This document shows positions 51,386 through 55,829 of a stretch of DNA of 64,000 nucleotides, in pieces. The stretch is from Halomontanus rarus (GTDB taxonomy: Archaea > Halobacteriota > Halobacteria > Halobacteriales > Natrialbaceae). The notes beneath the pieces were generated by a model. The model was not told the DNA's origin, made no database searches, and saw only the letters and a program-made list of their open reading frames with translations. The translations under genes were made by a program, and so were the position numbers. Numbering within the stretch: the first letter of the stretch is position 1; each line of letters opens with the position of its first letter. The stretch lies in contig NZ_CP071597.1 in the NCBI RefSeq assembly GCF_017357405.1, positions 1,426,001-1,490,000 of the forward strand. The letters run 5' to 3'.

Positions 51386-52159
51386 TCAGGTCCGGCGGAC
51401 GATCGCGGCGATCGCGGCGATCGCGGCGAGCGAAGCGAGTACGGCGGTGAAACCGGGGACCGAGTCCGTCCTGTCGTCCGAGTTCGACTCCGAGTCTGTG
51501 CCCGGATCCGACTCACTCTCGTCTGCACCCGCGTCGGTATCCGCGTCTGCATCCGTCTTCGAACCGTCGCCGACGGTCAGCGTCCCCGCCTCGAGACTCG
51601 GCTCGATCGGGCTACCGCCGTCGGCGTCCGCTTGGAGGTCCACGACGCGAAGGTCCGTCTCGCCGGCGTCGACGCCGGTTACGTCGATCCGCGCTAGCGT
51701 GACGTTCGACTTTCCGGCCGTGATTTCGTCGGCGAGATCGACCGCTTCGACGGCGATCGTCCGACCGTCCGAACCCACGGCCGGATCGGTCGTCATCCCG
51801 AAGTGATCCGGGTAGCTGGCACCCGTCACGGTCGCAACGTCCTCGGAGTCGAGTGCGAGCGTGATCTCGAAGCCCGCCAGGCCGTCCGGAACGTCGGTCA
51901 GAGCGACGCGGTGTGTCGCGCTGGCGTCGAGGTCGGTCGACGCGTCGGAGACGACGAGTGTACCTTCGGCCGCCGGACTCGAGTTATCGGCGACTGAAAC
52001 GCCATCCGCAGTCGATCCGCCGCCGGTAACCAGCCCGATCGGGGCCGACGCGAGGACGATCCCGACGATCAGGAGCGCCGCGATCGGTTGCCAGCGTCGG
52101 CTCGATCGTGCCAATCGGCCGCCGGACGCTGACGACTCGTCGGCAGTGTGACGGTGCAT
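51386..52159 (-). CDS. Cohesin-like surface protein with PGF-CTERM anchor
   Basis: A 257-residue surface protein. Residues 23-43 form an uncleaved or signal-anchor helix (WQPIAALLIVGIVLASAPIG), residues about 70-190 a beta domain resembling a cohesin (NSSPAAEGTLVVSDASTDLD; DVPDGLAGFEITLALDSEDV; ASYPDHFGMTTDPAVGSDG), followed by an Asp/Ser/Thr-rich stalk and the C-terminal SVPGFTAVLASLAAIAAIAA-RR tail, which is a PGF-CTERM sorting signal for archaeosortase A. It shares a clear sequence pattern with the cohesin-like region of the PhoX protein upstream, 17 bases away in one operon. Function as an anchored receptor is inferred. Confidence 0.75.
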   Translation of the reverse strand: MHRHTADESSASGGRLARSSRRWQPIAALLIVGIVLASAPIGLVTGGGSTADGVSVADNSSPAAEGTLVVSDASTDLDASATHRVALTDVPDGLAGFEITLALDSEDVATVTGASYPDHFGMTTDPAVGSDGRTIAVEAVDLADEITAGKSNVTLARIDVTGVDAGETDLRVVDLQADADGGSPIEPSLEAGTLTVGDGSKTDADADTDAGADESESDPGTDSESNSDDRTDSVPGFTAVLASLAAIAAIAAIVRRT

Positions 52160-52176
52160 CTGAGACCACCTCACAC

Positions 52177-54798
52177 TCACAGCTCGTCGGACAGTGCGAC
52201 GACGTCGTCGTAGTCGATGCGGCCGTTCTCGTTGAAGTCGAAGGCGCCGTCGTTCAACTGGACGGACTCGTCCTCGAGGTGCTCGAACAGGAGCACGACG
52301 TCGTCGTAGTCGAGTCGACCGTTGCCGTTGACGTCCTCGAACAGTCCGTCGCCGTCGACGTCGGTCGGAGCTCTGCCGGAACCGGAGCCGCCGCCGATCG
52401 ACGGCGGTCCGGTGACGACGATACCCGGACGGGGCTGTGGTTCGATCGGCGTTCCTGAATCGTCGTCCATCGCGTGGACGTCGATCGTGATGTCGGTCGT
52501 CCCCGTCCCGGTTCCCTCGAGTTCGAGCGTCGCCAGCGTCCCCTCCTCGAGGCCGGCCTCGAACTCGTCGTCGAGGTCGGCGAAGCGGAACGCGACGCTC
52601 GAGCCGTCGTCGCCGACGGCCGGGTCCGCAGTGAGTTCGAGCGCGTCGTGGTAGCTGGCGTCGACGATCTCGGCGACGTCGGCGTGTTCGACCGAGACGG
52701 TGACGCGGCCGCCCGCGAGGCCGTCGGGGATCCGTGAGAGCGTCAGGTCGACCTCGCCGGTCGCGTCGTGACTGACCGCCAGCGAGTCGACGCGAAGCGT
52801 CGCCGGCGGTTCGTAGACCCACATGGCGTCGTTGGGGTACGAACGGCCGAAGCTTCCCTTGTCCTCACAGAGGAGGACGCGGCCGTCGTCCATGACCATC
52901 ACGTTGTCGACGTTGATCAGCGACGCGTCCTTCAGGGACTCGGCGTCGCTCGCGTTCGGACCGACGACGACGGGCTCGAGACGGGAGACGTCGTAGTCGT
53001 CCTCGAGTTCCGCGCGGTAGACGACGCCGCTGTCGACCTCGTCGAACCGGAGGTCACCCCGGTCGTCGGTCATGTAGCCGCCGAGCGACGAGATACCGAA
53101 GTAGACGAAGTCGCCAGGTTCGGCCTCGTCGTGGGAGTCGATCCCCTCGGCTTTGTTGAACTCGACGCTGGCACCGATCTCCTTCGCCGCCGCGCGGGTC
53201 TCGAGGAAGGGAACGCGACGCAGGTCCTCGTCGACGCCGTCGGGACCGCGCTCGTCGTACTGGGCGGCCCACTCGACGATCTCCTCGTCGGTGATGTAGT
53301 CCCGGTTGCCGTCGATCGCCACCGTCTCGTCCGCTTCCATCAGGGCCCCCTCGAGGTCTTCCCGCCAGTCGGTCTCGGCGTGGGTCTCGAGGTAGTCGAC
53401 CTGCGTGACGTCGTCGTAGTCGGCGATCCAGGACTCGATCTCGGCGTTACTCGCCGTTCCCAACTCGAGCCACTCGACCTCGAGGTCCGTCTCGGCGACG
53501 GGCCCCTCGCCGACCTCCGTCGCTTTCATCGCGGACAGCGTACCGCGGACGTCCGCGCGGGTCTCGTACTCGGGGATCGGCTCGTCGGCGACGAACTTGT
53601 AGATCCCCTTCGCGCCGCCGTCGGAGGCGAGGTAGACGGTCTTCTCGTCGGCGAGGACCTCGGGACACTCCCAGGCGGCCCGGCCGAAGACGTGGTGCTT
53701 GACCGGGACCGGGTCGTCGCTCGCCGGCTCGGTGATCTCGACGATGTGGCCGTAGCGATAGCGGTTGGGGAACACGTCGCCGATCGGCTCCCGCGTGTTC
53801 TCACCCTCGACCCGATCGACGGGCTCCGCACCGAGGTAGTAGGCGAGCTTCTCGGTGCCGGTGTTCGCCCAGATACCCATCGGCGTCCAGGCGTCGTCGC
53901 CGAAGATGTCCTCGAGCGCGCTCGGGAGCTCGCCCACGTTGGGGCGGTTCCAGAACTCGTTGCCGCCGCGCAGCCCGACGCCGCTTCCGGCCTCGACGAT
54001 GTCGCTCACCGTCGCGAGGCCGCCTACACGCGGATGAGCGTAGTCTTCTTCGGCCGAGAGGGGCGTCTCCCACGGGCTCAGGTCCCCGTAGCAGTTGATC
54101 TTCGTCCCGCCGATCTCGCGGAACGCGTCGGTGTTCTCGAGTTCCATCGCGTTCTCGAGGTCGGCCTCCCAGCGTCCGTCCGCACGACCGATCGGCGTCC
54201 GGGTGATACAGCCGGGCGTGGTTTCGTTGTTCGTGAAGAGGTAGCCCTCGGTGCCGTCGTCGTTCGTCGAGACGAAGAAGTTCATGTCGGGGTTGTGTCC
54301 GACTCCCTCGTAGCTCTCGTCGACGACGTCGGCGACGTCCGTCCCGTCGGGGGTCTGCGGGTGGCCCCACCGCTCGGTGCCGCCGTTGATCGACTCGCCT
54401 TCCGCAGCGAGATAGCGGTACTCACCCGCCGAGGAGCGTACCCGGCCCCGTTCGCGCTCCGAACGCGGCGGTTCCAGTTCGTCGAACTCGTCGTTCGTCC
54501 CGTCGAACTCGAACTGGAATCCCTCGATGACGCCGACTCCCGCCCGGTCGAATGGCTCCGGGTTGTCCCGGCTCGGGTGTTGAACGCTGTAGAGGAGCTC
54601 ACCCGTCTCGAAGACGAACGGCCCCGTGACCTCCGCACCTCGAGCCGTCGTCAGGAACCGCTTGATGCTTCCGTTGACGTACGGAGCGGTCAGCGTATCG
54701 TGTTCGTCCTCCTGGGCACTCGTCGCGCCGAGCATTCCGGTCCCGACCGCCGCCGCCGCTGACGTCGCCATCAGCTTCCGCCTGGTAAATTCGACCAT
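52177..54798 (-). CDS. phoX: Tat-secreted PhoX-type phosphatase with cohesin-like and dockerin modules
   Basis: An 873-residue protein. A Tat signal (TRRKLMATSAAAAVGTGMLG) is followed by the PhoX (DUF839) alkaline-phosphatase domain at about 35-690, seen in EGVGHNPDMNFFVST, PRVGGLATVSDIVEAGSG, HHVFGRAAWECPEVLADEKT, and DFVYFGISSLGGYMTDDRGD. About 690-800 is a cohesin-like beta domain (IPDGLAGGRVTVSVEHADV; ASYHDALELTADPAVGDDGS). The end, about 812-873, has two dockerin EF-hand-like repeats: DVNGNGRLDYDDVVLLFEHL and DFNENGRIDYDDVVALSDEL. Ca2+-dependent phosphomonoesterase activity fits the family. This fusion is not something I recognise. Confidence 0.88.
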   Translation of the reverse strand: MVEFTRRKLMATSAAAAVGTGMLGATSAQEDEHDTLTAPYVNGSIKRFLTTARGAEVTGPFVFETGELLYSVQHPSRDNPEPFDRAGVGVIEGFQFEFDGTNDEFDELEPPRSERERGRVRSSAGEYRYLAAEGESINGGTERWGHPQTPDGTDVADVVDESYEGVGHNPDMNFFVSTNDDGTEGYLFTNNETTPGCITRTPIGRADGRWEADLENAMELENTDAFREIGGTKINCYGDLSPWETPLSAEEDYAHPRVGGLATVSDIVEAGSGVGLRGGNEFWNRPNVGELPSALEDIFGDDAWTPMGIWANTGTEKLAYYLGAEPVDRVEGENTREPIGDVFPNRYRYGHIVEITEPASDDPVPVKHHVFGRAAWECPEVLADEKTVYLASDGGAKGIYKFVADEPIPEYETRADVRGTLSAMKATEVGEGPVAETDLEVEWLELGTASNAEIESWIADYDDVTQVDYLETHAETDWREDLEGALMEADETVAIDGNRDYITDEEIVEWAAQYDERGPDGVDEDLRRVPFLETRAAAKEIGASVEFNKAEGIDSHDEAEPGDFVYFGISSLGGYMTDDRGDLRFDEVDSGVVYRAELEDDYDVSRLEPVVVGPNASDAESLKDASLINVDNVMVMDDGRVLLCEDKGSFGRSYPNDAMWVYEPPATLRVDSLAVSHDATGEVDLTLSRIPDGLAGGRVTVSVEHADVAEIVDASYHDALELTADPAVGDDGSSVAFRFADLDDEFEAGLEEGTLATLELEGTGTGTTDITIDVHAMDDDSGTPIEPQPRPGIVVTGPPSIGGGSGSGRAPTDVDGDGLFEDVNGNGRLDYDDVVLLFEHLEDESVQLNDGAFDFNENGRIDYDDVVALSDEL

Positions 54799-55094: not shown

Positions 55095-55505
55095 CTACTC
55101 GAGTTGCTGGGCGTTCACTCTGGCCCGAATCTCCTCGGCGCGGTCGCGGACCCACGAGAGGTAGCGTTCGATCTCGGTCGGCGTCGCGCCGTAGAACGAG
55201 GCGACCCAGTTGACGTCGGCCCAGGGGAGCGTGACGAGATACGCGGCGAGGGTATCCTTGCCGGCCTGAACGACCTCCGGCGGGACGCCCCGCTCGCCGG
55301 TTCCGTCCTCGACGAAGCCGTTGACGTCGAAGTAGACGTCGGCGTACAACCGGGCGTCCGCGAGGTCGTCGAACGCGATTTCCGTGTGCTCGGGTGCTTC
55401 GAACCGGTAGCGATCGTCGACTCCGTCCTCGAGGATTCGAACGCCCAGAACGTACTCCTCGACGATCGAGTCGTCGGTTGCGGGGGTGGTATCGTGCGTG
55501 GACAT
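55095..55505 (-). CDS. Uncharacterised acidic protein
   Basis: A 136-residue cytoplasmic protein. A Ser/Thr/Asp-rich head is followed by a mixed alpha/beta section (VEEYVLGVRILEDGVDDRY, EAPEHTEIAFDDLADARLY, YLVTLPWADVNWVASFYG) and a helical end with EIERYLSWVRDRAEEIRARV. No family was recognised, but its conserved-looking aromatic core and regular codon use mark a real gene. Start ATG 55505 begins MSTHDTTPATDDSIVEE; longer readings run into repeat-like sequence. Confidence 0.7.
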   Translation of the reverse strand: MSTHDTTPATDDSIVEEYVLGVRILEDGVDDRYRFEAPEHTEIAFDDLADARLYADVYFDVNGFVEDGTGERGVPPEVVQAGKDTLAAYLVTLPWADVNWVASFYGATPTEIERYLSWVRDRAEEIRARVNAQQLE

Positions 55506-55829
55506 ATCGGTCGTTCCAAAAGGAACGGAGCGAGAACCGGTATTGAACGTTGATATGAGAGCTATAGTTCGCTCGTGAACGCACCGGAGCGCTATGGTCA
55601 CCACTAAAATCACTGCACAGCCGGTCGCACGACGAGAGTGTGGTTCGAAGCGCACTGTGAGCGAGCACCGCGGACCGTACGATAGGTGTTCGGCGTACAC
55701 TATGAGCGAACACTGCGTACCGTGCGATGAGTGTGTGAATCGTTTCAGTCGACACTCGATAGTCGATAGTCGCCCTTCGAACCACCCACTACCGAGGAGG
55801 AGAGAACGATCGACGAGCGATCGAGGCGC
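55506..55829. other. Spacer with imperfect direct repeats
   Basis: No supported gene in 324 bases. Two imperfect copies of a 37-base unit stand at 55653-55689 and 55698-55734 (30 of 37 positions match), each containing GAGCGA-CAC-GCG-CCGT-CGAT spaced alike. Confidence 0.5.

Follow-up and report, generated by a model that had tools for sequence, protein, structure and literature searches.

A haloarchaeal PhoX phosphatase with its own cohesin and dockerin, encoded beside a membrane-tailed cohesin protein: a predicted surface unit for phosphorus scavenging

The 64,000-nucleotide stretch of Halomontanus rarus DNA analyzed here (the window; contig NZ_CP071597.1, positions 1,426,001 to 1,490,000) encodes a PhoX phosphatase, the C terminus of which carries a cohesin-like module followed by a dockerin (together, the cassette), and the next gene downstream encodes a protein with a single cohesin and a putative membrane tail (the anchor). 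The comparisons described below suggest that these two genes probably specify a calcium-dependent, surface-tethered unit for phosphorus scavenging. PhoX would be exported in an unanchored form, by the look of its signal via the twin-arginine translocation (Tat) pathway. The dockerin at its C terminus, together with calcium, would plug into the single cohesin of the downstream protein, the PGF-CTERM-like tail of which would keep PhoX at the cell surface, and the phosphate freed from organic esters would be taken up at the cell. The face of dockerin loop 1 is the likely grip on the anchor, and the cohesin of PhoX itself would offer a further socket. A second PhoX, or a different enzyme that bears this cassette, could dock there, perhaps through the loop 2 face of its dockerin. 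Candidate guests of this socket are PhoD in the same genome, and 5'-nucleotidase and choice-of-anchor I proteins in others, and one anchor would then carry a small phosphorus-scavenging complex. We infer from these comparisons the binding of dockerin to cohesin, its need for calcium, the co-transcription of the two genes, the surface location, the role in phosphorus uptake and the formation of chains.

The catalytic part of the protein matched the PhoX profile PF05787 with 83.4 bits (cut-off 24) over residues 218-649 in the Pfam scan. It also contains the motif NCYGDLSPWETPLSAEE, with C236, E250 and E251 invariant among 15 aligned PhoX sequences; we take the pattern NC-G--(S/T)PW-T-L--EE to be the conserved Cys/Glu metal-site motif of PhoX. 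Hence, by profile and motif the protein is a PhoX phosphatase, with the activity predicted. The top cassette match in a plasmid collection, from Salarchaeum, was likewise annotated as 'alkaline phosphatase PhoX'. The N terminus reads by eye as a Tat-type signal (MVEFTRRKLMA..., with TRRKLMA), and no membrane anchor was seen on reading the sequence of the 873-aa protein. The first-pass annotation of the window had placed this gene correctly and had recognized cohesin-like and dockerin modules in its last 180 residues; both identities stand, while the cassette is longer, at about 209 residues.

Because the search with the Pfam Cohesin profile was negative, the middle module was assessed by fold prediction. 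A model of the cohesin only, built from 18 sequences, had a predicted local distance difference test score (pLDDT) of 85.5 and a predicted template modeling score (pTM) of 0.77. Comparison of this model with the PDB using Foldseek returned cohesins or cohesin-bearing chains as 49 of the 50 best matches, with 3kcp_A counted by us among the latter; the sole non-cohesin, at rank 50, was a venom-factor complex. The best match was the Clostridium thermocellum scaffoldin complex 4fl4 (expectation value (E) 7.4e-11, TMq 0.78), and the archaeal cohesin 2xdh of Archaeoglobus fulgidus was also among the matches (E 3.8e-9). An earlier model of the whole cassette, built from 11 close sequences, had a pLDDT of 57.8 overall and gave cohesins at ranks 1-8, the best at only E 2e-3. 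Among 81 related haloarchaeal modules three matched Pfam Cohesin (E up to 0.01). When a profile of all 81 was compared with PDB sequences, the top three matches were cellulosomal scaffoldin proteins (E 0.006-0.04; 0.05-0.12 per domain), followed by two carbohydrate-binding domains of a glycanase (E 0.05-0.06); full-length PhoX had no match to PDB sequences at 1e-3. By the model, residues ~662-800 fold as a cohesin jelly-roll. This module is conserved at least as well as the cohesin of the anchor, with a mean entropy of 0.73 versus 0.96 bits (30 and 29 sequences, respectively), and the idea that it has decayed and hence offers no socket was not supported. The first-pass annotation had named two grounds for doubting its modules, namely profile searches without a hit and a predicted structure unlike either fold. 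The former was observed for the cohesin, while the PhoX profile matched and Dockerin_1 scored on both sides of its cut-off; the latter was not, as the modeled module has the cohesin fold.

The C-terminal module has the features of a type I-like dockerin. Its calcium loops, DVNGNGRLDYDD and DFNENGRIDYDD, were near-invariant in a comparison of 11 cassettes, and they form two F-hand loops with near-symmetric recognition residues. In a genome-wide search the module scored 26.9 bits, above the PF00404 cut-off of 22.9, and a profile of the 11 cassettes matched in the PDB first the dockerin of Endoglucanase SS/CelS (E 0.006), and then EF-hand proteins and more dockerins. Positions 10 and 11 of the loops are presumably the specificity positions of the dockerin; the recognition residues are Y-D twice in PhoX, namely Y831 and D832 in loop 1 and Y863 and D864 in loop 2, and Y-D and Y-G in PhoD of the same genome. 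Recognition positions in dockerin loops have been given as 10-11 and 11-12 (PMC5301203).

The anchored cohesin gene (51386-52159) is an element absent from the first-pass annotation. The protein consists, in this order, of a hydrophobic N-terminal signal, one cohesin, an acidic linker and the PGF-CTERM-like tail. Because the PhoX stop is followed by a gene for a 257-aa protein with a cohesin and a putative membrane tail, this next gene would provide an anchored socket for the PhoX plug. The tail scored 20.4 bits against the TIGR04126 PGF_CTERM profile (cut-off 24.5), and PG[FG] was found in 26 of the 29 anchors read. Five anchors of named genomes were read to the end, and these have PGF in four cases and PGG in one.

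To place the fusion in a wider context, its relatives were compared in three sets of genomes. Among the named genomes 11 relatives of PhoX were found, two of which, from the bacteria Aestuariibacter and Agaribacter, match the catalytic part only, to residue 666. The other nine are haloarchaeal (Haloterrigena, three Natrialba, two Natrinema, two Halopiger and Halobiforma) and match residues 1-869 or 1-873. The fusion is therefore not a chance one, because all nine haloarchaeal relatives hold the entire cassette, as the first-pass annotation had led one to look for; a downstream cohesin is present at all nine loci. The second set consisted of 125 genomes of the family, with up to the best 24 candidates per genome scored and the weakest matches outside the table. 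Among the matches listed, the cassette profile at 1e-8 was found in 57 of these genomes, and 49 PhoX-type cassettes in 44. A cohesin-only match lies 129-327 bp downstream on the same strand in 42 of the 44. In genome G022 no downstream cohesin gene was seen before a metC-like gene, and in G067 the downstream anchor gene is split across two frames. For 35 of the 44 genomes the cassette profile, which does not list all dockerins, matched nothing beyond PhoX cassettes and a single anchor; the limits on scoring and listing affected one of the 35, G029, for which a fuller search confirmed the result. In the third set, 392 genomes of the order with up to the best seven candidates per genome scored, the cassette profile at 1e-20 was matched in at least 108.

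The PhoX catalytic region is present in 60 of the 125 family genomes, including all 44 with the cassette. The remaining 16 have only cassette-less PhoX, in frames of ~680-770 aa (seven were also read), and in 14 of them the matches listed include no cassette-profile match at 1e-8; of the other two, G087 has a PhoD with the cassette, and G055 has two cohesins in a frame of 671 aa. The eight cassette-less PhoX loci fetched yielded no cohesin when all six frames were searched from stop to stop. G094 and G087 each have a PhoX, 82-83% identical and with the same neighbors upstream, that stops just past the point where the cassette would start. Hence, the cassette and the anchor come and go together within the family. 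The view that PhoX normally ends after its catalytic domain, on which the first-pass annotation had relied, holds for the two bacterial relatives and for these 16 genomes, while the fused form is the commoner one in the family.

The presence of the anchor gene was also related to a single residue in the dockerin. The source of this hypothesis was three loci, L099 (G022), L119 (G348) and L124 (G161), in which a search of all six frames, stop to stop, showed no second cohesin beside PhoX, and which were the three among 16 PhoX cassettes without an aromatic residue at position 10 of loop 1. In total, 83 PhoX loci were read across the order, 39 of which were fetched for the test of this relation. 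The loop count covers 83 cassettes in 82 loci, with L073 omitted because loop 2 of its cassette misfits the pattern, and the genome count, of 81 genomes, omits L086, the upstream copy of G067, which has the tyrosine and lies in a fetched stretch too short to reach the anchor. The data showed that all 77 cassettes with a downstream anchor (76 genomes, with the broken anchor of G067 counted) have tyrosine at position 10 of loop 1, while the five genomes without an anchor lack it and have D-D (G022 and G330), H-H (G348) or D-E (G161 and G176). Of the 39 loci that had been fetched to test the relation, 37 have both the anchor and this tyrosine, and two have neither. The one-sided probability of five of five against none of 76 is 4e-8, computed without regard to descent. 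All 83 cassettes, the anchor-less ones included, have an aromatic residue in loop 2. Because the tyrosine is kept with the anchor gene and lost without it, loop 1 probably binds the anchor cohesin and is freed on anchor loss, and the pattern in loop 2 suggests that this loop has another partner. Loop 2 may bind the PhoX cohesin, either in cis or in a neighboring molecule, because no other cohesin was found in four of the anchor-less genomes. This loop 1 result raised our confidence in the two-gene unit and in the formation of chains, which is considered below.

The same cassette was found on other enzymes. In the H. rarus genome it is present on a PhoD (L057:4054-6291; PhoD E 1.4e-106), and in other genomes on further PhoD proteins (four scanned for domains and two assigned by BLAST, 60 and 89% identical), on three 5'-nucleotidases, on two choice-of-anchor I proteins and on SNase-domain proteins (three scanned, and a fourth, L098, assigned because it resembles L097). 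No second cohesin was found in the fetched stretch at seven of seven PhoD loci, two of two choice-of-anchor I loci and two of three 5'-nucleotidase loci, with the contig of L101 ending soon after PhoD; one is present at all four SNase loci. Cassettes typed as PhoD, nucleotidase or choice-of-anchor I occur in seven genomes, of which six (G000, G408, G387, G287, G333 and G260) hold PhoX and the anchor; the seventh, G087, does not. PKD-domain, GH5 and malectin proteins are among the more distant profile matches, and the wider family of modules therefore extends beyond phosphorus. A tree was made from 98 cohesins, with 139 columns, few for its rows, and a bootstrap that had not settled; in it the cohesins of PhoX, PhoD, the choice-of-anchor I proteins and two of three nucleotidases form one supported clade (97/87), and ten PhoX anchors group together (86/88), with the L118 anchor outside.

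To identify possible partners, an inventory of 15 genomes was made, with cohesins found by the 81-module profile (1e-3) and dockerins by Pfam (0.1). Among eight simple-looking genomes, four (G017, G060, G063 and G077) have only the PhoX and anchor cohesins, and no dockerin beyond that of PhoX was found; in G063 Pfam found no dockerin at all, and the match of PhoX to the cassette profile covers it. One of the other four, G031, has 14 dockerin matches besides PhoX, several of them in frames longer than 2000 aa, yet only the cohesins of the PhoX unit were found there.

Several observations weigh against the two-gene unit. In the Pfam scan of the window proteins neither the PhoX cohesin nor the anchor cohesin matched PF00963, and on PhoX alone Dockerin_1 reached 20.3 bits over residues 821-870, below the cut-off. 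The dockerin part of the whole-cassette model has a pLDDT below 50. Outside the family, several anchors lack PGF and have a plain hydrophobic stretch as their tail, and no phosphate regulon was seen beside the PhoX locus of the window. The PhoX cassette occurs without an adjoining anchor in G022, G348, G161, G176 and G330, so the anchor is not obligatory; in the first four of these the PhoX cohesin is the sole one found genome-wide, while G330 has three others elsewhere. As G161 and G176 belong to one genus, the independent losses behind the loop 1 result are fewer than five, perhaps two to four. Furthermore, the PhoD cassette with its Y-D loops is present in G087 with neither an anchor nor a PhoX cassette, four of the eight simple-looking genomes (G011, G041, G104 and G031) have further dockerins, and the nucleotidase cohesin of L134 falls in another clade and has a neighboring cohesin of its own.

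The use of the two loops could go beyond tethering. Tentatively, we consider a scaffold-less 'phosphatasome', in which loop 1 would bind the membrane anchor and loop 2 the cohesin of another enzyme, and mixed head-to-tail chains of PhoX, PhoD, 5'-nucleotidase and choice-of-anchor I proteins at the haloarchaeal surface would turn phosphate esters and nucleotides into phosphate. The first-pass annotation had suggested that the enzyme could self-associate or join a non-cellulosomal surface complex. The surface complex has gained support from the fold, the dockerin, the membrane-tailed cohesin encoded beside PhoX in 42 of 44 genomes, the loop residues that track the anchor and the other phosphorus-releasing enzymes, and the four sole-cohesin genomes (G022, G348, G161 and G176) suggest either self-association of PhoX or pairing in cis.

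Pairing purely in cis, in which the PhoX cohesin would fold onto its own dockerin, or stabilize it like an X-module, and would serve as a cap or switch with at most a 1:1 tether and no chains, is unlikely, and it keeps what weight it has because of the genomes without an anchor. In the cassettes read, cohesin and dockerin are neighbors connected by a short flexible linker, and the four sole-cohesin genomes keep both the cassette and the aromatic loop 2. X-modules are also found beside dockerins in known systems. It is hard, however, to fit a permanent cap with an anchored cohesin beside PhoX in 42 of 44 genomes and a loop 1 that tracks the anchor, and the occurrence of this cassette on enzymes that lack a neighboring cohesin gene suggests use in trans. 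A capped state that can open, or one limited to loop 2, may occur. The reading of the modules as calcium-binding, salt-stabilizing or adhesive additions that do not pair, with the anchor as an unrelated surface protein sharing the fold, would agree with the weak sequence similarity to bacterial modules. It is very improbable, given that cassette and anchor are present or absent together in the family, that the tyrosine of loop 1 follows the anchor gene, that the calcium loops are conserved, and that the fold match is specifically to cohesins.

The H. rarus genome contains a second set of cohesins and dockerins. At C1:1620.9-1659.8 kb (L054:5881-L056:9797) it encodes a glycoside hydrolase family 5 (GH5) protein of 2096 aa with a Tat signal and ten tandem cohesins, a cohesin protein of 261 residues with a PGF-CTERM-like tail, and 13 dockerin matches on proteins that contain GH5, GH10, GH81 and other domains; the 2096-aa protein itself showed no dockerin. 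By its domain content this cluster looks like a haloarchaeal cellulosome. Close matches of the scaffoldin cohesins (over 190 bits) were obtained among the 125 genomes only in this genome and in its genus-mate G007, which has an eight-cohesin frame (1801 aa; G007:C23:286490-291295) with an anchor and no PhoX match; G085, of another genus, has a four-cohesin frame (1187 aa; G085:C23:327-2084). A cluster tabulated for Natronoglomus, with a GH5/CBM6 protein of 1,755 residues, an 'S-layer glycoprotein' of 258 residues and dockerin proteins (PMC10963439), may be comparable; the words cohesin, cellulosome and scaffold are absent from the main text of that paper.

In 23 other dockerin proteins of the H. 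rarus genome, which are those in the fetched stretches that fit the loop pattern, none of the 46 loops has an aromatic residue at position 10, the residues being mostly T-T and V-T. The scaffoldin cohesins and their anchor form a clade of their own (100/100). That the PhoX dockerin plugs into the ten-cohesin scaffoldin, adding a phosphatase to the cellulosome-like complex, is the least probable reading: the scaffoldin does lie in the same genome with 13 dockerin matches beside it, but its close cohesins occur in two of 125 genomes versus 44 for the PhoX cassette, G007 holds a relative of the scaffoldin without PhoX, the recognition residues differ, and the two kinds of cohesin belong to separate supported clades. 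Membership of PhoX in the cellulosome was thus rejected on recognition residues, cohesin clade and distribution. The PhoX unit consists of one-cohesin proteins and a phosphatase, without a multi-cohesin scaffoldin, and judged by these features it is distinct from the cellulosome-like cluster of the same genome. A link between aromatic-acidic residues and phosphorus enzymes beyond this genome is not claimed, since the loci were found via the PhoX-cassette profile and the sugar-related L128 and L127 share the residues.

Table 1. Features of the PhoX gene and of the anchor gene downstream, in positions of the window
Feature	Position	Strand	Basis or remark
PhoX-cohesin-dockerin gene	52177..54798	-	Open reading frame, 873 aa
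PhoX catalytic region, residues ~30-660	52819..54711	-	Pfam PF05787 and alignment
Cohesin module, residues 662-800	52399..52815	-	Model, Foldseek against the PDB, profile
Gly/Ser-rich linker between cohesin and dockerin	52363..52407	-	Sequence
Type I-like dockerin, residues 813-873	52180..52362	-	PF00404; PDB profile match to CelS dockerin
Calcium loop 1, DVNGNGRLDYDD, with Y831 at the presumed recognition position	52300..52335	-	Cassette comparison
Calcium loop 2, DFNENGRIDYDD, with presumed recognition residues Y-D	52204..52239	-	Cassette comparison
Anchoring protein, 257 aa	51386..52159	-	Begins 17 bp after the PhoX stop
Anchor cohesin module	51560..51976	-	39% identical to the PhoX cohesin over 131 aa
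PGF-CTERM-like sorting/membrane tail (VPGF, hydrophobic stretch, RR)	51392..51469	-	TIGR04126

The gene upstream of PhoX (window 55095-55700, minus strand) has no Pfam match, and its relatives adjoin PhoX in many loci, with or without the cassette. PstB-like and PhoU-like genes, named by eye, adjoin only cassette-less PhoX copies (L146:1038-5852 and L148:636-5473), which hints at phosphate regulation. Other arrangements of cohesins and dockerins were also noted. Two haloarchaeal proteins, at L128:7101-10199 and L127:4139-5773, have five and three cohesins, respectively, and a C-terminal dockerin, and resemble adaptor scaffoldins. At L058:3706-8246 a subtilase with a dockerin lies directly upstream of a protein of 508 aa that bears two cohesins, CARDB and a PGF-CTERM-like tail, as in a protease version of the pairing of enzyme and anchor. 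At L057:9626-11799 a DUF7350/iron-transport-like gene overlaps the start of a gene for a cohesin protein, which scores above the Pfam cut-off and has a C-terminal hydrophobic tail.

Cohesin-dockerin assembly is known mainly from bacterial carbohydrate breakdown. The PhoX unit shares with bacterial cellulosomes (type I; C. thermocellum) the cohesin fold, the two-loop dockerin, the location of dockerins on secreted enzymes and the anchored cohesin protein. It differs from them in that the haloarchaeal enzymes are phosphatases, nucleotidases and nuclease-domain proteins rather than glycoside hydrolases, that there is no multi-cohesin scaffoldin, that the enzymes also bear a cohesin, that the anchor is PGF-CTERM-like and that the unit is archaeal. 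A non-cellulosomal, enzyme-borne cohesin is also present in the secreted glycosidases of Clostridium perfringens (2jh2, 2vo8 and 2w1n, which were among the fold matches). In that organism cohesin and dockerin sit on different glycosidases, while here both are on one phosphatase. ScaH of Ruminococcus flavefaciens is made up of a cohesin and a dockerin. Socket and plug are thus on one polypeptide in PhoX as in such adaptor scaffoldins (PMC12484212), although the bivalent haloarchaeal unit is itself an enzyme; the term 'archaea' does not occur in the available part of that review. Archaeal cohesins and dockerins without cellulose are known from A. fulgidus (2xdh) and from anaerobic methanotrophic (ANME) archaea (PMC9012536). 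The ANME dockerins are on binding proteins of ABC transporters and on S-layer-domain proteins, and scaffoldin-like proteins have up to five cohesins; archaea are said there to lack large scaffoldins (PMC9012536, citing Peer et al. 2009). In contrast to the PhoX unit, the available part of that paper does not describe an enzyme complex that has its own dedicated anchor. The amylosome and the mucinolysome similarly extend the cohesin-dockerin principle to other substrates, which are still carbohydrates, in gut bacteria and with scaffoldins (PMC12997984). The function of cohesin and dockerin modules outside the cellulosome has been called not known (PMC5244752), and the implications of non-cellulosomal modules not clear (PMC9012536). 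No phosphatase cohesin-dockerin complex or haloarchaeal cellulosome was recognized in the open-access literature, mostly titles and the openings of abstracts, with subscription papers and preprints outside its scope.

The conserved two-gene unit of a phosphatase and an anchored partner makes a non-cellulosomal role of these modules directly testable, as four of eight simple genomes show no other partner, and the anchor-less genomes point to the residues for mutation. Haloferax volcanii reportedly lacks homologs of common acid/alkaline phosphatases (PMC13318637). If the proposed unit is correct, it would extend the cohesin-dockerin principle to phosphorus acquisition with no scaffoldin needed, and would provide a scaffold-less route to enzyme clustering as well as a salt-proof plug-socket pair for protein engineering. 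With both a plug and a socket on PhoX, and a putatively membrane-anchored socket encoded by the gene that follows, these data suggest, by analogy, that haloarchaea may mount phosphate-scavenging enzymes on their surface as some bacteria mount cellulases.

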